From: Phormidium tenue FACHB-1052
GTDB taxonomy: Bacteria; Cyanobacteriota; Cyanobacteriia; Phormidesmidales; Phormidesmidaceae
Assembly (NCBI RefSeq): GCF_014696675.1
Contig: NZ_JACJQN010000007.1
Coordinates: 185,277-249,276 of the forward strand
Direction of reading: 5' to 3'
Length of the DNA: 64,000 bases
Shown here in pieces: positions 40,538 through 50,989 of this stretch. The notes below the pieces were generated by a model. It saw only the letters and a program-made list of their open reading frames with translations. It was not told where the DNA came from and made no database searches. The translations under genes and the position numbers were made by a program. Numbering within the stretch: the first letter of the stretch is position 1; each line of letters starts with the position of its first letter.

Positions 40538-40849
40538 AACCTCTAAACATAGCGCCTGAAGTGCCGTTGCTTCTCAAGTCTAGCGATCACACTGCTGAGA
40601 CAAGCCGCCTAGACCCTCAGGCTTAACCTTTTTTTAGGGCGCGATCGCCCCAATGGCCCCCATCCACTAGCCGACCAACCCACCTGCCGATAGATGGTTG
40701 TACCGCTGGGCCTGGGGTACCCTGCGATCGCAACCAGGCCTCCCCAGCTAATCGTCAACTTTTGATAAGCTCTTGCGGAATGCCCGTAATCTTACGGAAG
40801 TTACCTGGGAAACCTAACAGGCAGTAGCCCTCCCTCGGTGCCCCATCTT
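40538..40849. other. Divergent promoter region of UPF0182 and tubulin-like genes
   Basis: About 310 bp with two HIP1 sites. CCGTAA (40784-40789) and TTACGG (40792-40797) form a tight inverted repeat 53 bp before the tubulin-like gene, a possible operator. No RNA gene or terminator is seen. Confidence 0.35.
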
Positions 40850-43800
40850 ATGAGCGAATATACCGGCATGACCCCCACCGTCATCATTGGCGTGGGGGGC
40901 ACTGGCAAAGAGATCCTGATCAAAATTCGCCGCATGATCGTGGAGCAGTACGGCTCCCTTGATGCCCTGCCGATCGTCTCGTTTTTGCACATCGACACCG
41001 AGCAAAACGCCAAGGTCTCCGAAGCTCAAACCGTCCTCAAGCAAGACATCTCCCTGCGCCCCATCGAGCAGGTGTGGGCCAAGGTCGAAGACGCCAAGGC
41101 CATTCTCAACAAGCTGTCAGCCTACCAATATTTAGACGAATGGTTCCCCAGCGAACTCAAGGGTACCGACTCGATCCTCTCTGGGGCAGGTCAAATTCGC
41201 GCCCTGGGCCGGTTTGCCTTCAGCCTCAACTACCCGCTGATTAAGGACTACTTCACCAAGGCCAAGGGGCGCATCGTCGGCCATGAGAAACTCATGCTCG
41301 ATCGCTGGAAGGTGCAGCTCGACAAAGGCATCAACATCTTTGTGGTTTGCTCGCTCTCCGGCGGCACTGGTTCCGGCATGGTGATGGATCTAGCCTACAA
41401 CCTGCGCGACTGGGTGCCGGTGTCAGAACTACCGCAGACCAGCGCCTTTCTCGTGCTGCCGGGGGCGTTCTCAGGATTGGGCGATCGCGTCATTGCCAAC
41501 GCCTACGCTGCCCTGATGGAGCTCAACCACTACAGTCGGGGCGACACCCGCTTTGACGTGCAATACAGCGACAGCCAGAGCGATCGCATCACCGCCCAGA
41601 GCGGCCTCGATGTACCCTTCAACTTCACCTACCTGGTGGGCAACAGCAACGACAAAGTCACCTTTCCCACCCTGGGCGACGTGCTCGAAATGGTGGCGCA
41701 GAACGTGTTTCTCGACTTCAGCTCCGGCTTTAGCCAGTACAAAAAGCTGGTGCGCGACAACGTCCGCAAGCACTGGGCCAGCCCCGACGCCCTGGGCTAC
41801 CCGCAAAATTTCATGAGCTTTGGCCTCTCCAGCATTCAGTTTCCGGTAGAACGGGTGCTAAACGCCTGCTCAGCACGGCTGGCGGCCAAGCTGGTGGACT
41901 GGTGGAGCAACCCCACCCCGGCCCCAGCGGCGATGTCCGACCTGATTCGCACCGAGATTCTCCCCGGTCTGTTCCTCGCCGAATCGGAGCACGACCACCA
42001 GATCGTCGACAGCATCAGCATGGGCGACAACAAAAAGCCCTACGCCAAAGAAGTTGCCGACTGGGTGGCGGGGGTGCGCAAGCGCCGCAACGACCTGAAT
42101 ATTCCCTTTGAAAATCTCCAGCGATTTATCTCCAACGAGCAGGAGAAATACGCCCCCCACTTCAACGACACCGGCACCGACCCCAAGCGCTGGAGCGACT
42201 ACTTCCAAAAGATGTGGGACAACCTCACCTGGCTGATCCCTGAGAAGCGCAAGGAACTGCGGGCGGCGGTTTACCTAATGGTGGAAGACCGCTTCCGGGG
42301 GCCGAAGTTTACCCGGCAGTTCTTGGAAGTGCTAATCGAGGTGTTTGCCAACTTTCGCAGCAAATTTGACGAGGATCGGCAGAAATACTGGCTGCCCCGT
42401 GAGCGATCGGCCCAAAACGCCCTGCAAACCCTGCTAAAGCAGATCGACGATCATGCCAAGCAGATGATGATGCTCAATCGCAAGAAAGTCATCTTCGATG
42501 ACTTTCAGGGCATCATGCAGGCGCTGGAGCAGGTCTATGTCTCCAAAGTTGAAGTCAAGGCCCGCACCCTGGGGGTGATGCTGCTCGATGGTCTGCGCGA
42601 AGAAATTGACCAGCTCTTGGTCGACCTCACCGCCTTTGAGACGGTGCTAGGCAACGTCCAGGTCGAACTGAAGGATAAAGAGCGTGTCTATACCCGGGAG
42701 ACTGGCGGCCTGACGGTGAACGGCATTCTGCTCTACGACGAAAAAGAAATCGACGCCGCCTACCGCAAAACCGTCGCCGATCAGGAAGAAACCCTCTGCC
42801 AAACCCTTTCCCAACAGGTGCTCGAAGAACTGCGGGTGCGCCTATTTGACCTCTACCCCTACGACGCCCTTAAAACCAAAGACCTCTACGAGCGGCTGCT
42901 GGGTCAGGCCATGGATGTCTTCCGCCGCCGCAGCCAGCTCGACATCTCCACCGCCCGCAAATTCCTCGAACAATACCCAACTGTGGAAATGCAGGAGGCC
43001 CAGATTAAAACCACCTTCGAGAAATCGGAAGCCTTTTTGCGCCTCAGCCAGGAGCAAAAGAAGCTGGGCTGGGACGACAAGCTGGAGAAGTACCAAAAAC
43101 TCGTTGGCATCCAGGGCGGCAGCAAACCCACCGACCCGGCAGTCTCGGCGCTGCTGCCGATGATCCGCAAAACCAGCACCGTCACCGACAAGGAAATTCG
43201 CCCCCTCAACGACCCCTACCACATCTACTTTGTGCAGGAAATTGGCGCTTTTCCGCTGCGGCTGATTGAGGGCATGGAGCGGATGCGATCGCTCTACCGC
43301 GCCGTCAGCCAAGCTGACCACAACCCCCTGCACACCCACCAAGACTATCGCCAGTTTGGCGATGTCATGCCCGAAACCAGCAATGAGCGCCAGGCCCGCT
43401 ACAACCTGATGTTGGCCAACGCCCTGGGCCTGGTGCGCCGCGAAGACAACCGGGTGACGGGCTTTGCCGAGGTCAAATTTACCTACCGCGACAAGCTCAC
43501 CGGCTTCGACAAAACCGAAGTCATGGGAGACTCCTGGGAAGAAGCCGAGGATTTCCTCCTCACCGACCAAAACCGCCGCCTAGCTGAAACCCTAGATAAC
43601 AGCATTCGGGCGATCGGTGAACAGGCCGCCACCAAACCCCAAAAGCAGGCCCTCTACACCCAGGTAATGACCTACCTGCAACAGCAGGAGCAAACGATTC
43701 CGGGCGGCTCCGACAGCGACGACTACAAACGCATCCAGGCCGCTATCTCCAACTTCGTCACCACCCACCGCCTCTTCATCCCCTCGGATGCCCCCACCAC

Positions 43801-44224
43801 CCCATCATCCGCTACCCCCATTACTTCCTCATCTTCCTCCCCCTCCCCATCTCCCCTATCCTCTCCCCCTCCCCCCTCCCTCGACTCCGAGAACCTCGTC
43901 AAATACGCCAAGCTAGTAGAAACCTGCTACCGGCGCGGCAATCCCTCGCCCACGGAGCTAGAGCTGCTGGAAAAATTCCGCGTGAAGTACGGGGTTTCGG
44001 TGGCGGATGCGAATGCGATCGCCGCCCAATACCAACCTCAAAATACCGTCGAGCAAGCCGCTGCTGAGTACGGGTTGATGTTCCGCGCCTTCCTCGACAA
44101 CGACGGCGAAGTTGACTTAGAAGAGCAGGCCCAGCTTCTGGAACTTCAGGAAGAACTCGGCCTCACTAACGAGCAAGTTGCCACCATTGAAGAGAACGTC
44201 AGGGCCGAGATGAACAGACCCTAG
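40850..44224 (+). CDS. Tubulin-like (Tubulin_2 type) GTPase-fold protein
   Basis: A 1124-aa protein from the ATG at 40850. The N terminus (TPTVIIGVGGTGKEILIKIRR, about 9-28) is a FtsZ/tubulin-type nucleotide loop, and SLSGGTGSGMVMDLAYNLRD (GGTGSG at about 171-176) is the tubulin signature. The middle (about 330-830) is large, charged and helical. A Ser/Pro linker lies at about 980-1015 and a C-terminal helical module (NDGEVDLEEQAQLLELQEELGLTNEQVATIEE) at about 1075-1110. This is one of the bacterial tubulin-like proteins of unknown cellular role. The next gene, 145 bp on, encodes a membrane receptor, and the two may work together. Confidence 0.85.
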   Translation: MSEYTGMTPTVIIGVGGTGKEILIKIRRMIVEQYGSLDALPIVSFLHIDTEQNAKVSEAQTVLKQDISLRPIEQVWAKVEDAKAILNKLSAYQYLDEWFPSELKGTDSILSGAGQIRALGRFAFSLNYPLIKDYFTKAKGRIVGHEKLMLDRWKVQLDKGINIFVVCSLSGGTGSGMVMDLAYNLRDWVPVSELPQTSAFLVLPGAFSGLGDRVIANAYAALMELNHYSRGDTRFDVQYSDSQSDRITAQSGLDVPFNFTYLVGNSNDKVTFPTLGDVLEMVAQNVFLDFSSGFSQYKKLVRDNVRKHWASPDALGYPQNFMSFGLSSIQFPVERVLNACSARLAAKLVDWWSNPTPAPAAMSDLIRTEILPGLFLAESEHDHQIVDSISMGDNKKPYAKEVADWVAGVRKRRNDLNIPFENLQRFISNEQEKYAPHFNDTGTDPKRWSDYFQKMWDNLTWLIPEKRKELRAAVYLMVEDRFRGPKFTRQFLEVLIEVFANFRSKFDEDRQKYWLPRERSAQNALQTLLKQIDDHAKQMMMLNRKKVIFDDFQGIMQALEQVYVSKVEVKARTLGVMLLDGLREEIDQLLVDLTAFETVLGNVQVELKDKERVYTRETGGLTVNGILLYDEKEIDAAYRKTVADQEETLCQTLSQQVLEELRVRLFDLYPYDALKTKDLYERLLGQAMDVFRRRSQLDISTARKFLEQYPTVEMQEAQIKTTFEKSEAFLRLSQEQKKLGWDDKLEKYQKLVGIQGGSKPTDPAVSALLPMIRKTSTVTDKEIRPLNDPYHIYFVQEIGAFPLRLIEGMERMRSLYRAVSQADHNPLHTHQDYRQFGDVMPETSNERQARYNLMLANALGLVRREDNRVTGFAEVKFTYRDKLTGFDKTEVMGDSWEEAEDFLLTDQNRRLAETLDNSIRAIGEQAATKPQKQALYTQVMTYLQQQEQTIPGGSDSDDYKRIQAAISNFVTTHRLFIPSDAPTTPSSATPITSSSSSPSPSPLSSPPPPSLDSENLVKYAKLVETCYRRGNPSPTELELLEKFRVKYGVSVADANAIAAQYQPQNTVEQAAAEYGLMFRAFLDNDGEVDLEEQAQLLELQEELGLTNEQVATIEENVRAEMNRP
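43785..43892 (+). repeat. Polypyrimidine tract encoding a Ser/Pro linker
   Basis: About 110 bases are almost purely C and T on the plus strand and encode a PTTPSS...SPSPSPLSSPPPPS-type linker. Such a homopyrimidine run can adopt non-B structures; a similar but shorter tract is in priA at 10603-10652. Confidence 0.7.
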
Positions 44225-44369
44225 GCATTTTAGATTTGTGATTTTGGATTTTGGACTGTGCCCTGAAAAGCCGAGAATCGGTAAACTGGCCTGGCTCTTC
44301 CCATCCAAGGTCCAAGATCTAAAACTCACCTAAACCCCCCAACACCCATCCACCCTTTTCCCTAAAACC

Positions 44370-45929
44370 ATGACCGACAGCTTCAACCACGTCACCTGCC
44401 CTAAGTGCGGCTACGAAGAAAACACCACCACGGCCCAGAAATGTGAAATCTGCGGCCAACCGCTGAAAAAGAGCAAGTCTATCGCTCCGCTGATCGCGGG
44501 GGTTGGGGCACTGATCTTTCTCGCTGCGCTGGGCTTCACGGGCTACAACGCCTTTGTGCGTAAGGATGCGCCCCAGACTCCGACGGCGGTGCCGACGACC
44601 CCCACGGATGCCAATGCTGGTACCGGGACAACCCCCACTGCTGTTACGCCGACTACTACGCCAGGCCAGCCTGCTGATGTAGCCGGTGCTCTAAGCTGGG
44701 GCGATCGCGTCCTCTTTACTGATGCTCCCAACCCCGATATGCAAGCTGGGGCTGCCGCCTACGCCTCGGGCGACTATGCCACTGCCGCCGCGCGGTTTGA
44801 GGCGGCCCGCAACGCTGTTCGCAACGACCCAGAAGCGCTGATCTACCTCAACAATGCTCGAATTGGGGCTAATCCTGCTTTGGGCATTGCTGCGGTAGTG
44901 CCCATTGGCGACAGCCCCAACACCGCCCGCGAACTGCTGCGCGGCGTGGCCCAGGCCCAGGATGAGGCAATCAAGGCCGGCACCCCCGTGAAGGTGCTGA
45001 TTGCTAACGATTACAACAATGCCGGTCAGGCTGCCGCGATCGCCAACGCTCTAGTCCAAGCCCCCGATGTCATCGGCGTCATCGGCCACGGCACTAGCAC
45101 CACCACCCTGGCGGCTGCACCTGTTTACCAGCAGGGGCAACTGCCGATGATCTCCCCCACCAGCACCACCACAGAGCTGACCACGCTGCCCAGGGAGGGC
45201 GGCAACTTTGTTTTTCGGGTGATTCCCAGTGACCAGTTTACGGGCACCACCCTGGCCCGTCACATGCTCACCCTGGGCAAGAGCAAACCCATCGTCTACT
45301 ACAACTCCCAAAGCTCCTACAGCAAGTCGCTGCAAGACGCGTTCTCCACCACCCTGGGCCTAGAAGGGGGACAGGTGGCCAAACTGGTCGATTTATCCCA
45401 GGGCAATCCAGCGGCGGAGTTGCAGGGCAGCGGGGCCGATGCTGTGGTGCTGCTGCCCGACTCGGCCACCTTTGATGCGGCGATCGCCGTCGCCCAGCTC
45501 AACAATGGTCAGCTGCCGGTATTGGCTGGCGATGCTTTCTACCGCATTGATGCTCTGGAAAAGGGCGGGGCCAGCCTGACAGGCGCTTTGGTCACCGTTC
45601 CCTGGCATCCACTTAAATCGACCCCGCCCTTCGCCCAGACCTCCTCCGGCCTCTGGGGCGGCGATGTCAACTGGCGCACCGCCCTTAGCTATGACGCATT
45701 TCAGGTGTTGAGCTCAGCCCGCACCGTAGGAAATGTCGCTCCCGGCAGCGGTACTTCAGGACGAGCTGCGATCGGTCAGGCGTTGACCACCCAGGGGTTC
45801 TCCGCCAATGGATCCACAGGGGCGATCAACTTCTTGCCGTCGGGCGATCGCAACACCACCGTGCTGCTGGTCGAGGTGAAACCGGGCACGCGATCGGGCA
45901 CTGGGTATGACTTTGTGCCGCTGCCCTAA
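44370..45929 (+). CDS. Zinc-ribbon, membrane-anchored periplasmic-binding receptor
   Basis: A 519-aa protein. Residues 10-28 form a zinc ribbon (CPKC at 10-13, CEIC at 25-28), one TM helix spans about 39-60, a Thr/Pro linker about 66-110, a TPR-like pair of helices at about 125-160 (GAAAYASGDYATAAARFEAARN), and about 165-519 a branched-chain amino-acid-binding (Leu/Ile/Val, type I PBP) domain with VIGVIGHGTSTTTLAAAPVYQQ and GDAFYRIDAL. The topology puts the ribbon in the cytosol and the binding domain outside. It is not followed by ABC permease genes, so it is probably a sensor rather than a transporter subunit. It follows the tubulin-like gene on the same strand. Confidence 0.88.
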   Translation: MTDSFNHVTCPKCGYEENTTTAQKCEICGQPLKKSKSIAPLIAGVGALIFLAALGFTGYNAFVRKDAPQTPTAVPTTPTDANAGTGTTPTAVTPTTTPGQPADVAGALSWGDRVLFTDAPNPDMQAGAAAYASGDYATAAARFEAARNAVRNDPEALIYLNNARIGANPALGIAAVVPIGDSPNTARELLRGVAQAQDEAIKAGTPVKVLIANDYNNAGQAAAIANALVQAPDVIGVIGHGTSTTTLAAAPVYQQGQLPMISPTSTTTELTTLPREGGNFVFRVIPSDQFTGTTLARHMLTLGKSKPIVYYNSQSSYSKSLQDAFSTTLGLEGGQVAKLVDLSQGNPAAELQGSGADAVVLLPDSATFDAAIAVAQLNNGQLPVLAGDAFYRIDALEKGGASLTGALVTVPWHPLKSTPPFAQTSSGLWGGDVNWRTALSYDAFQVLSSARTVGNVAPGSGTSGRAAIGQALTTQGFSANGSTGAINFLPSGDRNTTVLLVEVKPGTRSGTGYDFVPLP

Positions 45930-46187
45930 TAAGGCGTGTAACGGATCAAAAGTTATAGATGTGTTGGTTAGGTAACCTCGCAGAAAGACATGTTTGGTAG
46001 AAATGATTACTAGAGTTGTTATTGGGCATACTTGGTACCTAGAAGAGATTCTTCTGAGTTTATGAATGATTTCCTTTAAAGGGATGCATTTTGCTTTCGC
46101 CGAATCCGAATCCCTTTAGATTTTAGTATGAATTTTGATTGCGACCAGGCATCGATAAAGGCCTTTAAACTTAGGTGAGGTTCAGAT

Positions 46188-46619
46188 ATGTTTGACTTCT
46201 TCAAAACTGGCAAAAAAAGACAGCCAGGCAATTCTATTAGTCAGTCGCAAACTGTAAATGGTCAGATCTCAGGGTTGTTGGGGCAGTCAGGTCGCGATCT
46301 GAAGCAATCAAACAACCTGTCTGAGAGTCAAGTCAAACAGGAGTTTTTGCCCTTAGAAATAATACCTTTGATTGAAGAGGTAATTTGTATTACTAAAAGC
46401 TCTAATCTTTCAGAGCAAGACCTAGAGAGAATTACTAGATTATTGGAATCTACAAAAAGCGAAGCTAAGGCTAGCAATCCAAACAAAGAAGAAATGGCTA
46501 AAAATCTAAAAGAGGTAACTGAGTTAACTAGATTGAGTTTTGAGTTGTTTGGGTCTGTAAGACCTTTGCTAGAAAAGATTTTTTCGCTTGTGTATGACGG
46601 GTTTTTAGGATTTCTTTAA
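46188..46619 (+). CDS. Small GQSGRD-motif protein, first gene of the NACHT pair
   Basis: A 143-aa protein of unknown function. Residues 1-12 are basic, 15-50 are polar (Ser/Gln/Asn-rich) and contain GQSGRD at 32-37, and 52-143 form two or three amphipathic helices with an apolar C-terminal end (LLEKIFSLVYDGFLGFL). The same G-Q-x-G-R-D motif occurs at residues 26-31 of the NACHT protein encoded 3 bases downstream. The gene is AT-rich and has no HIP1 site, unlike its surroundings, which suggests recent horizontal gain. A companion or regulator of the NACHT protein is likely but unproven. Confidence 0.75.
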   Translation: MFDFFKTGKKRQPGNSISQSQTVNGQISGLLGQSGRDLKQSNNLSESQVKQEFLPLEIIPLIEEVICITKSSNLSEQDLERITRLLESTKSEAKASNPNKEEMAKNLKEVTELTRLSFELFGSVRPLLEKIFSLVYDGFLGFL

Positions 46620-46622
46620 ACT

Positions 46623-48611
46623 ATGAAGGAAGACTCAGATTGGATTAAAAATAAACAAGATCTGAAAGATTCTTGGATATCAGAAGGAGGCAAAGTAGGA
46701 CAGGCAGGGCGCGATACATATCAACTCGATAACTCATCAATCATTTTTCAAACCCGAAATTTTTTTGTTAGTATTTTTCCTGGAATATTTTCAGGTGATG
46801 TTGAAATTCAAGATCGGATGCGCAAGTCATTTGCTATCAGATCAAAAAATTTTGTAAGGCAATATATTGAAGCGTCTTTGGAAAGTAGATCTAGAATTGA
46901 ATTAGGATTGACAGAGCGGCTTGATCTGAATAAACGCCCTTGGGATTTTGAGTATCAATCATCTCTTTACCTCAAGAAAAAATTAACTTCTTCGGAGACA
47001 ATTTCTCAGCTTTTTGAGCTTTATAATGAAGGAGAATCCTTGCTTGTTGTAGGAAAGCCTGGCTCAGGTAAAACTATTAGCCTTCTGGATTTAGCTCTTA
47101 ATTTATTGGATAAGTTTGAATCCCAAGCGAGCCTAAAAATTCCGCTTTTCCTCAACTTATCTTTCTGGCCTAGTAAATCCATTAGCATTGAAAGATGGCT
47201 AATTTTAGAGCTTAATCGACAATATTTTATTCCAGAAAAGATCGCGAAGCGATGGATTATTGAAGAAAATCTTGTTATTATTCTCGACGGCTTGGATGAA
47301 GTCAAGAAAAATCATCAAAATGACTGTGCTTATGCAATTAATGCATTCATTAGATCATATCCATGCACTAGCTTAGTCATTTCATCTAGAATCGATGACT
47401 ATACAGAGCTTGAAGAAAAGCTTTACGTTCAACATTCACTTTCAATTAGACCGATCCCATCTTGGAGAGTTTTTAGGTACCTTGAAGCTTGTGGCGAGCC
47501 GCTAAACGGAGTCTTGGAAGCGGTAAAAGAAGATGCAATTCTTAAAACTATGGCAAAGACGCCTTTGATACTGTCTATAATTATTTTGGCGTACAAGGAC
47601 TTTGGTAAAGATGATCTGCTTTCGATTTCAGAGCTTTCAAAAAGAGAGCATCTTTTTGAAACATATATAGATAGAATGCTGTCTCGATCCAAGAGCGATC
47701 TGGCCAATTATGACAAAAAGTTAGCAACGAAATGGCTGTCTTTCTTGGCTCGCAAGCTACAAGATAAATCTCTGCCGATCTTTTATATAGAGAGTATTAA
47801 TGCCTCTTGGTTAGATAACAAACGACAAAAGCTTAATTATCAAATCTATTTGCTCTTTGCATGCGTAGCTCCAATGATAATTGCAGGAGCTTATTTTGGA
47901 GTAGTGTATTTAAATGTTTATGCATTGTCAGCAGCATATGTTTACGATGAAGCTTCTGAACAACAAGTAATTAATATTTTACCTTATAATGCTGCAAAAC
48001 AAAGTATTCTTACTATGCCCAGGTTGTCTACTCTGATTGGAGGGGCCATCGGACTTGTTTTTTGGAATTATGTTGGATTCACTATAGTTGGGAAAACTCC
48101 TTCATTCTCATCACTGTTTTTGATTTTTTTGTCATCTTTAACTATTGGAAGTGCCATTGTTTTATTTGTTCACACTTTGACTGTTATTTTCTCTAGATTT
48201 ATAGGCTGGCTCTTTATTGCTCCCTCTAAAAAAGATATACCAAATCAGCTTACTTGGCTTGCACTAAAGAATTCTGTTTTTCTCTCAACTTTTGTCAGTT
48301 TTTCTGCTGGATTAGCATATTTCCTCCTCACTTTTCTTTTGACAGATTTGCCTTTCAGATTTCTAAATTTAGCTTTTTTAAGCCTTGGGTATTTGATTGG
48401 TATAGGATTTCTGTCTCCCTTCGGAGCCTTTTGCACAAGACATTGGGTTCTTAGAAAAGTCTTAAGTGAATTTGGCTCTATGCCTAAAAACTATAGTGGA
48501 TTTCTTGACTGGTGCTGCAATCGTCTCTTGTTAGGAAGGGTAAATGGTGGCTATTTCTTTGTGCACAGAATGCTTATGGAACACATTGCTTTAAAATATA
48601 CTACAAAATAA
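46623..48611 (+). CDS. Membrane-anchored NACHT (STAND) NTPase
   Basis: A 662-aa protein. N-terminal 1-50 is polar with GQAGRD (26-31). The NACHT domain runs about 135-330 with Walker A GKPGSGKT (144-151), Walker B LVIILDGLDE (217-226) and LVISSR (251-256). A helical arm leads to about 400. About six TM helices follow (408-432, 468-490, 497-520, 522-534, 551-573, 582-605). The end (FLDWCCNRLLLGRVNGGYFFVHRMLMEHIALKY) is the conserved tail seen in many cyanobacterial NACHT proteins. NACHT STAND proteins include bacterial antiphage bNACHT systems; defence is therefore plausible. Composition is AT-rich and the gene is coupled to 46188-46619. Confidence 0.9.
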   Translation: MKEDSDWIKNKQDLKDSWISEGGKVGQAGRDTYQLDNSSIIFQTRNFFVSIFPGIFSGDVEIQDRMRKSFAIRSKNFVRQYIEASLESRSRIELGLTERLDLNKRPWDFEYQSSLYLKKKLTSSETISQLFELYNEGESLLVVGKPGSGKTISLLDLALNLLDKFESQASLKIPLFLNLSFWPSKSISIERWLILELNRQYFIPEKIAKRWIIEENLVIILDGLDEVKKNHQNDCAYAINAFIRSYPCTSLVISSRIDDYTELEEKLYVQHSLSIRPIPSWRVFRYLEACGEPLNGVLEAVKEDAILKTMAKTPLILSIIILAYKDFGKDDLLSISELSKREHLFETYIDRMLSRSKSDLANYDKKLATKWLSFLARKLQDKSLPIFYIESINASWLDNKRQKLNYQIYLLFACVAPMIIAGAYFGVVYLNVYALSAAYVYDEASEQQVINILPYNAAKQSILTMPRLSTLIGGAIGLVFWNYVGFTIVGKTPSFSSLFLIFLSSLTIGSAIVLFVHTLTVIFSRFIGWLFIAPSKKDIPNQLTWLALKNSVFLSTFVSFSAGLAYFLLTFLLTDLPFRFLNLAFLSLGYLIGIGFLSPFGAFCTRHWVLRKVLSEFGSMPKNYSGFLDWCCNRLLLGRVNGGYFFVHRMLMEHIALKYTTK

Positions 48612-49057
48612 GTGTTTTCAAGAGAGTTTTGACTCAGCTAAGATTTAGTATTTAAGAAATCAAAGCTTTAGACTGCGAAGGGCTACTTGTTGAATTCGCG
48701 GAGTTATTAGAATAAACCTAAAAACCTCGAAACTCTTTCCCAAAAAGTATTTTAGCTATTGACCATACGACCCTTCAACGACTCCCTACATAAGGGATCT
48801 GGCAATTTTAATCACTATTTTTTAATAGGCTCAAAGCTTTAATCAGAAGAGTCTCTTGCTGGCACCTACCTGCTGCACGGTAACAGTTGAAATTGAACTA
48901 TAGTGGGTCTTACTCGAATGAGGTGCAGGTCATTTGCCCAAGTCTATGAGTTCTGAGACTTCTCTTAGCTGAGGTGTACCTCATGTATTCAGGAACCTCT
49001 ATAATTCTGCTCATGCGAAATGTGAGTTGCGTACCATCCCGCACAACATCAGCGCAT
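48612..49057. other. Intergenic region after the NACHT gene
   Basis: About 450 bp. AT-rich composition continues to roughly 48860 and then fades into the native composition. No ORF, RNA, att-like direct repeat or IS end is recognised. The convergent lipase gene ends at 49058. Confidence 0.35.
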
Positions 49058-50989
49058 TTACCCCTCAGGACTGCTGCGCCGCGCCCGCATCCGCTCTTTC
49101 ATGCCCTCGACAAAGTCGCCGCTGATCATGCCCTGCTCAATTTCGAGCTTGGCCTCCTCTTCTTCGCGATCGAGTGCCTTTTGCAGGTTGGCTACGTAGA
49201 ACTCCATCTTGTGGTCATCTACCGCGTCTGGGGTGCCCGAGGTGAAAATGGCGTGAATCATGCCAAACAGCCGGTCGGGGAAGCGCTGGAACATAAAGGA
49301 CTGGCGGCGCAGGCTGCCAGAGTCGTTAAAGTAGCGAAACTGGCCCATGTGGCCGTACACCCGCGTCGGCACCCAGGGAATAATCTGCGGCGGAATCATC
49401 GGTACGATGTCATTGTTGTTGGCGTAGCGGACGATGCGATCGCCCATCCGCGCATTCATGTAGTTGACCAGCTTCCAGTCGGCTACTCGGGGCTGGCCAA
49501 AGGTATAGAGCCCGCTGACCTCGAACCCCTGGGCTTCTAAGGAAATCGTCGCTACTGCCGCCAGTGCGCCGCCGAGGCTGTGGCCGGTGATCCACAGCTT
49601 GGTGTTGGGAGTGCGCCACTTTTTCAGGTAGTAAACCACCTGCTTTTCTACACTTTGCCAGGCATCTAAAAAGCCGCGGTGGACTCGACCCGTCGGCGGT
49701 ACGGCCTCTTGATCGGCCAGCACCGTAAATTCTTTCAGGCGAATCTTGAGGTTCGTTTTCCAGTCGCTGAGCTGCTGGGTGCCCTTAAACACCAAAATTA
49801 GGTTGTTGTCTCGCCGAAATATAAATGCCTGAGTGTCGGTGAGCCGCATGTCGAGGTACATAAAGTTGTCGCGAATATCGCGGATGCTGGCTTTTTCGCC
49901 CTCTTGTAGCCAGGTTTTAAGCACCGCGACCACATACTTGCTGGCGCTGAGCTGCTGCCAGCGGTTGTCGATGTCATCGCTGAGCCACAGCCGCGAAATA
50001 TCGGTGACATAGTCGCGGTCTTCATAGACCAGATGGGCGGCTTTGGCCAGGCAGAGGGCCCGGTAGGTGTCGTACTTGCCCTCCTCTAGCTCAATGCCGC
50101 TAAAGTCGTGGGTGCTGTAAGGGGGCGGCAGAATCTTAAAGCCAAAGCGCTCAAACAGCTTTTGCACCCGTCCGTAGCCCGCCCAGTAGATGTAGTGAAA
50201 CAGCTTGTCGTAGAACCCAGAACCACCCTTGCGCCGGTAGCGGCGATCGCCAATCAAGTTGATCCAATAGATGATGAAGGGCTTGATCTCCTCGGCTGTC
50301 ACTAAGCCCGACTCGATCATGGTTTCGAAATACTCTAGACCGCTGAGAAATGACTCAAACCAGTCGCGCAGGGTGATCTCAATGAAGAACTCTTCGCTGT
50401 CGTACCGCTGCACCAGCTCCAAGGCCTTGGGGGAGAAGGTGTTTTTCTGCCTGGCTCGGTGCTTGAGCTCATCGAGGCCATTGCGCATCTTGACCATCTG
50501 GTCGTGCGATCGCAGCGCCCGCCGCAGGCGATGGTCAGTAGCTTCAAAGCTAATCAGCCTGCCATCTTCGGGGTGTTTGATATAAAACATGCGGTACTCT
50601 TCGTAGTCGAGAATATCCAGCACGTTTTTAACTGGCTCGCGCTCACGAAAGGCCTTCACTTCCTGGCGAGCCAACTCTACCCGCTGCCAGCGGCGCTGCT
50701 GTTGATAGACATGCAGCCAAGCCAGAGCAATAAACGCGCCGCCTGCCAGGCTCAAGCTAGCCAGCAAGAGGGCTGGGGAGATACTCGCCATCATTCTCAA
50801 CGGCGATCGCAGCAAGCGCCTCGGTAGGCTCTGAGCAATGAGAACCTCTTTTTGAATGTCTAACCCTGTAGCCAGCGCTGGTGTTGCCGTCGGTACTGGT
50901 GCGATCGCCCCCAGAGGCTCACCGACTATTGCGCCCGCGCTCAAGCTCAGTGAAACCCCAAAAACCAGAAAAAACCGACGAATCGCCAT
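49058..50989 (-). CDS. Class 3 lipase-family alpha/beta hydrolase
   Basis: A 643-aa protein with an N-terminal signal (1-25) and a second membrane helix at about 70-92. A long helical region of no known domain (about 95-370) precedes a Lipase_3 domain (about 375-600). The nucleophile elbow is GHSLGGA, the acid probably in NNNDIVP, and the catalytic histidine probably in VYGHMGQ. Members hydrolyse lipid esters, but the true substrate is unknown. The C-terminal tail is charged and helical. It is convergent with the NACHT gene, with native codon usage. Confidence 0.88.
   Translation of the reverse strand: MAIRRFFLVFGVSLSLSAGAIVGEPLGAIAPVPTATPALATGLDIQKEVLIAQSLPRRLLRSPLRMMASISPALLLASLSLAGGAFIALAWLHVYQQQRRWQRVELARQEVKAFREREPVKNVLDILDYEEYRMFYIKHPEDGRLISFEATDHRLRRALRSHDQMVKMRNGLDELKHRARQKNTFSPKALELVQRYDSEEFFIEITLRDWFESFLSGLEYFETMIESGLVTAEEIKPFIIYWINLIGDRRYRRKGGSGFYDKLFHYIYWAGYGRVQKLFERFGFKILPPPYSTHDFSGIELEEGKYDTYRALCLAKAAHLVYEDRDYVTDISRLWLSDDIDNRWQQLSASKYVVAVLKTWLQEGEKASIRDIRDNFMYLDMRLTDTQAFIFRRDNNLILVFKGTQQLSDWKTNLKIRLKEFTVLADQEAVPPTGRVHRGFLDAWQSVEKQVVYYLKKWRTPNTKLWITGHSLGGALAAVATISLEAQGFEVSGLYTFGQPRVADWKLVNYMNARMGDRIVRYANNNDIVPMIPPQIIPWVPTRVYGHMGQFRYFNDSGSLRRQSFMFQRFPDRLFGMIHAIFTSGTPDAVDDHKMEFYVANLQKALDREEEEAKLEIEQGMISGDFVEGMKERMRARRSSPEG

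Follow-up and report, generated by a model that had tools for sequence, protein, structure and literature searches.

We analysed a two-gene unit in a 64,000-nucleotide stretch of the genome of Phormidium tenue FACHB-1052 (contig NZ_JACJQN010000007.1, positions 185,277 to 249,276), here called the window; all positions are those of the window, and the genes and motifs of the pair lie on its forward strand. The first gene (46188..46619) encodes a small protein of 143 residues with the motif GQSGRD, and the second (46623..48611) encodes a membrane-type NACHT nucleoside triphosphatase (NTPase) of 662 residues with the motif GQAGRD. Sequence comparison shows that this pair recurs in many cyanobacteria, with the motif present in both proteins and matched within pairs. 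On balance, we favour the view that the two genes form a recurring receptor-partner pair, in which the shared motif lets the NACHT protein recruit and template its partner and so sets off a membrane-directed immune or cell-death response.

Recurrence of the pair and of its shared motif

Both reading frames are intact and are separated only by bases 46620-46622, as had been read in the initial annotation, which was made from the letters of this DNA. The same annotation had noted a GQ(S/A)GRD motif near both N termini. We located the motif at residues 32-37 of the small protein (46281..46298), where it forms the core of about 28 conserved residues, and at residues 26-31 of the NACHT protein (46698..46715), where it scores 8.8 bits with a motif model built only from small proteins. 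Behind its motif, the small protein has a predicted four-helix bundle (residues 44-135, 46317..46592). In the AlphaFold2 model, the mean predicted local distance difference test (pLDDT) value of ten-residue blocks was 77-92 across residues 51-130, while residues 1-44 were mostly below 50.

The small protein seemed to be an orphan in an initial search. Its family was uncovered when 63 genomes of the order were scanned with a DNA pattern and 80 stretches were then read, in which small proteins bearing the same motif were followed by NACHT genes. An alignment of seven of these small proteins (A1) retrieved 293 homologues (E up to 1e-3) among 5.8 billion proteins, and the organism names were all cyanobacterial among the matches listed (120 of the 293). 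A1 matches were present in 68 of 291 genomes of the class, representing 42 of 130 genera. The aligned members have a constant order, with a short tail, the conserved stretch of about 28 residues around Q-A-G-R/G-D/N, and then the bundle. The motif region of the family consists to 65% of Q, N, S, T and G, compared with 31% in the part behind the motif, and the most hydrophobic stretch is C-terminal in 116 of 121 members. The first gene is a member of a hitherto undescribed family of about 300 cyanobacterial proteins, for which Pfam and NCBIfam gave no recognised family. The family resembles a PADLOC candidate, PDC-M14B, and 97 of the 99 aligned members matched its model PDLC04449 at E values of 0.01 or lower. 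For the window protein, two sister models of this candidate gave matches (E 3e-5 and 0.005), but within a 275-position model the match spans only positions 159-244, which belong to its C-terminal part. No description of the candidate was found.

We then considered the gene neighbourhoods of family members in 60 stretches, which represent, of the 83 listed class-genome matches, all those down to E 1.5e-12 minus the window's own, plus two weaker ones. These stretches hold 50 stand-alone small genes outside the window, including close relatives (e.g. L161/L162 and L192/L195) and a remnant from the same genome as the window (L214, on contig C32). A same-strand NACHT gene was located within 450 bp downstream in 31 of the 50 (gaps of -50 to 404 bp). 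A different same-strand open reading frame (ORF) followed in 14, and neither followed in five, namely the C32 remnant and four others, two of which (L186 and L200) are at a contig edge. At L157, L174 and L183 the nearest ORF was spurious and short, and the nearest same-strand NACHT gene was used for the pair counts. As two of the 14 other ORFs are incomplete (L160 and L181), there are 12 full-length non-NACHT partners. One membrane helix was predicted in nine of these and none in three. Pfam searches of three of the non-NACHT partners found PDZ (L191) and SH3_3 (L185) above the cut-off and SH3_3 (L182) below it. The partners at L191, L192, L195, L182 and L185 each combine one predicted membrane helix with the motif, in full or in weak form, and could possibly be non-NLR receptors (NLR, NOD-like receptor).

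The motif was then scored with the small-protein model at a threshold of 8 bits. At least 8 bits were reached by 41 of the 50 small proteins themselves and by 29 of 42 immediate downstream partners, by none of 48 upstream neighbours and by 3 of 43 second-downstream genes. The motif was not restricted to NACHT proteins, as seven of the 12 full-length non-NACHT partners scored at least 8 bits and the other five scored 4.8 to 7.5 bits. Because 12 of the 50 small genes have such partners and most of these score for the motif, the rule appears to be nearer to 'motif partner' than to 'NACHT partner'. Small homologues without a NACHT neighbour, which the initial annotation had named as a finding that would refute the unit, do occur in the strict sense (12 of 50), yet 31 of 50 have a NACHT partner and seven of the 12 others have a motif-bearing one. 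Some partners also gave weak matches to the small-family model, scored over the whole profile and not by position.

We also looked from the receptor side, at 30 NACHT loci that comprise the window and 29 loci from 116 genomes, one per genome. Among the 27 loci whose NACHT protein lacks the motif, only one (L256) has a motif-bundle gene beside it, while all three motif-bearing loci have the small gene. The three are the window, L260 and L261, the latter two at the places of L171 and L180. Since they are the window and loci of the forward set, only the 27 motif-less loci are new evidence.

If the motif specifies partners, it should be more alike within pairs than between them. We scored 44 pairs, with the window pair added and two pairs with incomplete small proteins (L163 and L206) dropped. 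The mean motif score was 60.3 for own pairs and 42.1 for other pairs. When each cluster of related bundles was represented by a single pair (21 clusters), the values were 68.4 and 42.8. The matching was found both for NACHT partners (10 clusters, 70.5 versus 41.9) and for non-NACHT partners (11 clusters, 66.5 versus 46.2). In each of the four sets, the observed own-pair value was reached by none of 20,000 re-pairings. A control region of the partners, residues 111-220 in 20 pairs, showed no matching (21.2 versus 21.3, P 0.55). These results support the shared-motif two-gene unit that the initial annotation had proposed: across cyanobacteria the motif distinguishes partners from other neighbours, and the two members of a pair have matching versions of it. 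Very probably, the motif mediates the pairing of the two proteins.

The NACHT protein and other arrangements of the motif-bundle cassette

The second gene matched the Pfam NACHT family PF05729 with E 5.9e-11 (42.9 bits, cut-off 26.7). The best PDB matches of its AlphaFold model were NLRC4 and NOD2, with NLRP3 within the top ten, which is the fold of an NLR. Walker A (GKPGSGKT, residues 144-151, 47052..47075) and the Walker B region (VIILDGLDE, residues 217-226, 47271..47300) fall in conserved columns and both read as intact, as the initial annotation had it. The same holds for the C-terminal tail that it had assigned to a NACHT group (48474..48590), which ends NGGYFFVHRMLMEHIA, also lies in conserved columns and is modelled as two short strands and a helix. 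Of the six C-terminal membrane helices that had been described, the presence of membrane helices is predicted again, in a region at residues 400-616 (47820..48470), but the number six is only plausible. Hydropathy gave five C-terminal membrane segments and one within the NACHT region, and six to seven long helices were modelled by AlphaFold at residues 400-616.

Homologues of the NACHT protein numbered 619, and many of the best 120 of these, its own entry included, have a kinase, CHAT or TIR Pfam accession. GQAGRD, GIAGRD or GNAGRD starts at residues 22-28 in 11 of the 119 relatives that remain among the best 120 when the protein itself is excluded. The motif is located at the N terminus, the position at which many homologous NACHT proteins bear a fused kinase, CHAT or TIR domain. 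Such a fused domain is also absent in some NACHT homologues without the motif. One homologue of 1157 residues (P0003) reads as two tandem membrane NACHT units in a single chain.

The motif and the bundle together form a cassette that is also found in larger proteins, in each case as the C-terminal part. We identified it in CHAT proteases (L049 and L213 by Pfam, L215 by likeness), in pentapeptide-repeat proteins (L202 and L207-L209, by Pfam) and in one probable P-loop protein (L211, with an AAA_16 match below the cut-off). At L049 (G037:C273), the gene for the CHAT-cassette protein (motif AQAGGD) stands in a row with a gene for a 421-residue protein and three NACHT-type genes (265, 836 and 636 residues, NACHT by likeness). 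The last four proteins of this row have GQAGRD in three cases and GQAMRD in the 836-residue protein.

Two further loci are located in the genome that contains the window. At L213 (G000:C35, 3335-10306), a CHAT-cassette gene is followed by a gene for a 1243-residue nSTAND1-WD40 protein and then by another large gene, whose product has at least 749 residues and a similar N terminus; the nSTAND1-WD40 assignment by Pfam covers the 1243-residue protein only. The CHAT protein and its two large neighbours have a motif flavour in common that is unlike that of the window NACHT. The scores followed this division. For the window small protein, the score was 43 with its own NACHT, compared with 26 and 23 with the two large C35 proteins, and the C35 CHAT protein scored 54 and 66 with the two large C35 proteins and 16 with the window NACHT. 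The other locus is the C32 remnant (L214, G000:C32, 4977-5450), an in-frame fusion of 157 residues in which the start of a small gene with GQAGRD runs into the final segment of a membrane NACHT gene. Compared with the intact pair at the corresponding place in another genome (G032, L102), about 2.2 kb are missing, so that the small gene lacks its end and the NACHT gene the greater part of its length.

A tentative reading of these arrangements, to which we give somewhat less than an even chance, is that in cyanobacteria one constant motif-bundle cassette acts as a plug-in effector or adaptor in address-coded signalling. A short, locus-specific templating motif would wire the cassette, alone or behind a CHAT or pentapeptide part, to membrane NACHT proteins, STAND-WD40 receptors and non-NLR membrane proteins. 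The order of domains would be the inverse of that in previously described amyloid signalosomes.

A possible mechanism, its precedents and its alternatives

In the mechanism that we propose, oligomerisation of the NACHT protein driven by nucleoside triphosphate would cluster its N-terminal motifs, and the clustered motifs would fold as an amyloid-type beta-arch. The small protein has a motif that is predicted to be unstructured, and this would then be templated onto the NACHT motifs. The bound four-helix bundles, which in most members have a hydrophobic C-terminal stretch, would be concentrated at the membrane, where they might either permeabilise it or gate the membrane helices of the NACHT protein itself. 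We regard the two outcomes as about equally probable. Phage is our best guess for the trigger, and we lean slightly towards phage defence as the purpose of the pair. The initial annotation had called the motif a sensor motif, but a role in recruitment or templating suits it better.

Whether templating is of the amyloid type is evenly balanced in our judgement. AlphaFold2 gave very low confidence for the motif region in both proteins, while the bundle and the NACHT domain were well predicted. Such an unstructured prediction, together with a motif region rich in Q, N, S, T and G, appears compatible with an amyloid, without being proof of one.

Several observations weigh against the mechanism as proposed. 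A plain disordered linker would look equally unpredicted in a monomer model. The hydrophobic C-terminal stretch attains the transmembrane threshold in only 6 of 121 family members. In the window protein, it is the first helix rather than the C terminus that holds the most hydrophobic stretch. The window's own pair scores only 43, the tenth best of 44 possible partners and about the foreign-pair mean of 42.1. The C32 remnant scores 51 with one foreign C35 protein versus 38 with the orthologue of its own lost NACHT. Five of the 12 full-length non-NACHT partners remain under 8 bits. Lastly, a defence scan, which was limited to three proteins neighbouring the pair, found no clear defence protein.

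The two-gene logic has precedents. Bacterial amyloid signalling (BASS) pairs were reportedly described by Dyrka et al. in 2020. As published, ten BASS families occur at the N termini of NLRs and at the C termini of Bell effectors encoded by adjacent genes, with CHAT or TIR partners being less frequent, mainly in actinobacteria and cyanobacteria (PMC7889193, PMC8086366, PMC12261475, PMC9815663). The window pair and its family resemble BASS pairs as described there in that an NLR gene adjoins a partner gene with a short motif common to both products. The NLR likewise bears the motif N-terminally (at residues 26-31 in the window NACHT, and at a similar place in relatives), the motif has many flavours, partners are small helical bundles with CHAT proteins as the rarer form, and the hosts are cyanobacteria. 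The pairs differ in that the motif here stands before the bundle (residues 32-37 of 143, with the same order in the aligned family), whereas the Bell motif is C-terminal, and in CHAT fusions it sits between CHAT and bundle. They differ further, within what those texts describe, in the predicted membrane helices of the receptor and in the non-NACHT partners. BASS2 motifs contain an ARD triplet in their C-terminal part, according to PMC9815663. Because this triplet is close to GRD, a kinship of GQxGRD with BASS2 is possible on sequence grounds. A published description of the motif itself was not found in a limited literature search.

Fungal HET-S/HET-s and HeLo amyloid signalosomes are similar in their two-gene logic and templating motif, and the HeLo core is also described as a four-helix bundle (PMC9815663), but the domain order is inverted here. 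A kinship of sequence with HeLo was not seen, as 1 of 99 members matched Pfam HeLo at E 0.022, which is the noise level. The small protein was also considered as a TRADD-N adaptor; its prediction is all-helical, without the RRM-like alpha/beta fold, and no TRADD family was found for the 99 members among the Pfam matches listed (25 of 29 families). Bacterial NACHT (bNACHT) antiphage proteins share with the second gene a central NACHT domain, whose nucleotide-binding motifs are intact here. Those described in PMC12169576 have an N-terminal nuclease or no discernible effector, and NCH1 or SNaCT C-terminal domains. The main text of that paper never uses the word transmembrane, whereas the second gene has predicted membrane helices. 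From these comparisons, the principle of an NLR with a shared-motif partner appears to be already known, and the window pair to depart from it in its domain order. The statement in the initial annotation that this is not a described architecture was too strong, given the BASS pairs and the similar principle of effector-associated domains (EADs) of conflict systems.

EADs lead to the most probable of the alternatives, in which the small protein is a non-lethal, EAD-like adaptor or regulator, contact is an ordinary short-motif or folded one, and the executor is the membrane region of the NACHT protein or another effector. As in the window pair, EAD systems have a small module common to a core protein and the product of an adjacent gene (PMC7159879, PMC8195603). 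The EAD principle as published is that core and effector proteins encoded by neighbouring genes share such modules (PMC7159879). Full-length NACHT partners have several predicted membrane helices, and in CHAT fusions the bundle accompanies a domain able to be an effector itself; because the CHAT domain could play that part, the bundle need not be lethal. EADs as described there are, however, small folded domains on both sides (PMC7159879, PMC8195603), whereas the clearly shared piece here is a short motif, predicted to be unstructured. The motif flavour also varies among loci of the same genome, with the C32 remnant as an exception, which argues against one general adaptor. We consider this adaptor role rather unlikely.

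That the pairs serve as cell-envelope or stress-signalling modules rather than in immunity is improbable. This role would suit the PDZ and SH3_3 domains found above the Pfam cut-off among non-NACHT partners, the single predicted membrane helix in most of these partners, and the location of the window pair between a lipase gene and a binding-protein gene. The absence of the pair from the same site in relatives, its AT-richness and the deleted second copy fit the turnover of defence genes instead, and the company of CHAT and STAND-WD40 proteins and the match to a PADLOC candidate also fit defence. Least probable of all is that the small protein, in the manner of an antitoxin or chaperone, keeps the NACHT protein inactive so that its loss triggers the response: the small-then-large order with short gaps recalls toxin-antitoxin operons and the C32 locus lost sequence of both genes together, the NACHT gene for the most part and the small gene in part, but an inhibitor is less natural in a cassette fused to CHAT proteases beside motif-bearing STAND genes, and the matched motif in both proteins would be left unexplained.

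If the recruitment and templating model is true, the two-gene, shared-motif logic of NLR immunity would extend to membrane-type bacterial NACHT proteins and to partners that are not NLRs, and about 300 related proteins outside Pfam and NCBIfam would be given a role. The cognate pairs form a large natural set in which a specificity code of prion-like templating could be read and tested, and one genome alone has at least two motif flavours.

Composition and insertion site of the pair

The pair is located in an AT-rich island (45930..49057, unstranded), delimited by the GC (guanine plus cytosine) profile and by the spacing of the flanking genes in relatives. The low GC itself extends over roughly 45,930-49,050. 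The GC content is 0.370 in the first gene and 0.358 in the second, compared with 0.558 in the window, and GC at third codon positions is 0.36 and 0.30, compared with 0.71 and 0.77 in two upstream genes. The 2.4-kb stretch of the two genes has a GC content of 0.361; among 559 other 2.4-kb segments the lowest value was 0.514 (mean 0.566, standard deviation 0.019). The AT-richness in the initial annotation was well founded. The lack of HIP1 sites that it had also pointed out is real, as none of the 83 sites in the window falls within 45844-49436, the longest gap. For 83 randomly placed sites, however, a gap of this length is expected with P = 0.53, so that the absence of HIP1 alone is no evidence for an island.

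The island is flanked by convergent host genes, a periplasmic-binding-protein-like gene and a lipase gene. We searched for both in 26 genomes of the genus and found a close lipase homologue in 16 relatives. The insertion site could be read in nine of these, with both flanks in one stretch; in the other seven, the second flank was outside the stretch. The gene pair was absent from this site in all nine informative relatives. In seven, the flanking genes were 39-178 bp apart. In the other two (G031 and G036; L217 and L221), an unrelated gene of about 360 residues was located between the flanks (open frames of 354 and 364 residues). The absence from the site in all nine relatives means either a recent gain here or repeated loss elsewhere. 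Composition and the state of the site in relatives together support a foreign or recent origin of the island. Since an unrelated gene occupies the same spot in G031 and G036, insertion may be favoured at this position. Immediately before the island (40838-45929), a gene for a 1128-residue Tubulin_2 (PF13809) protein adjoins the periplasmic-binding-protein-like gene (PF13458).

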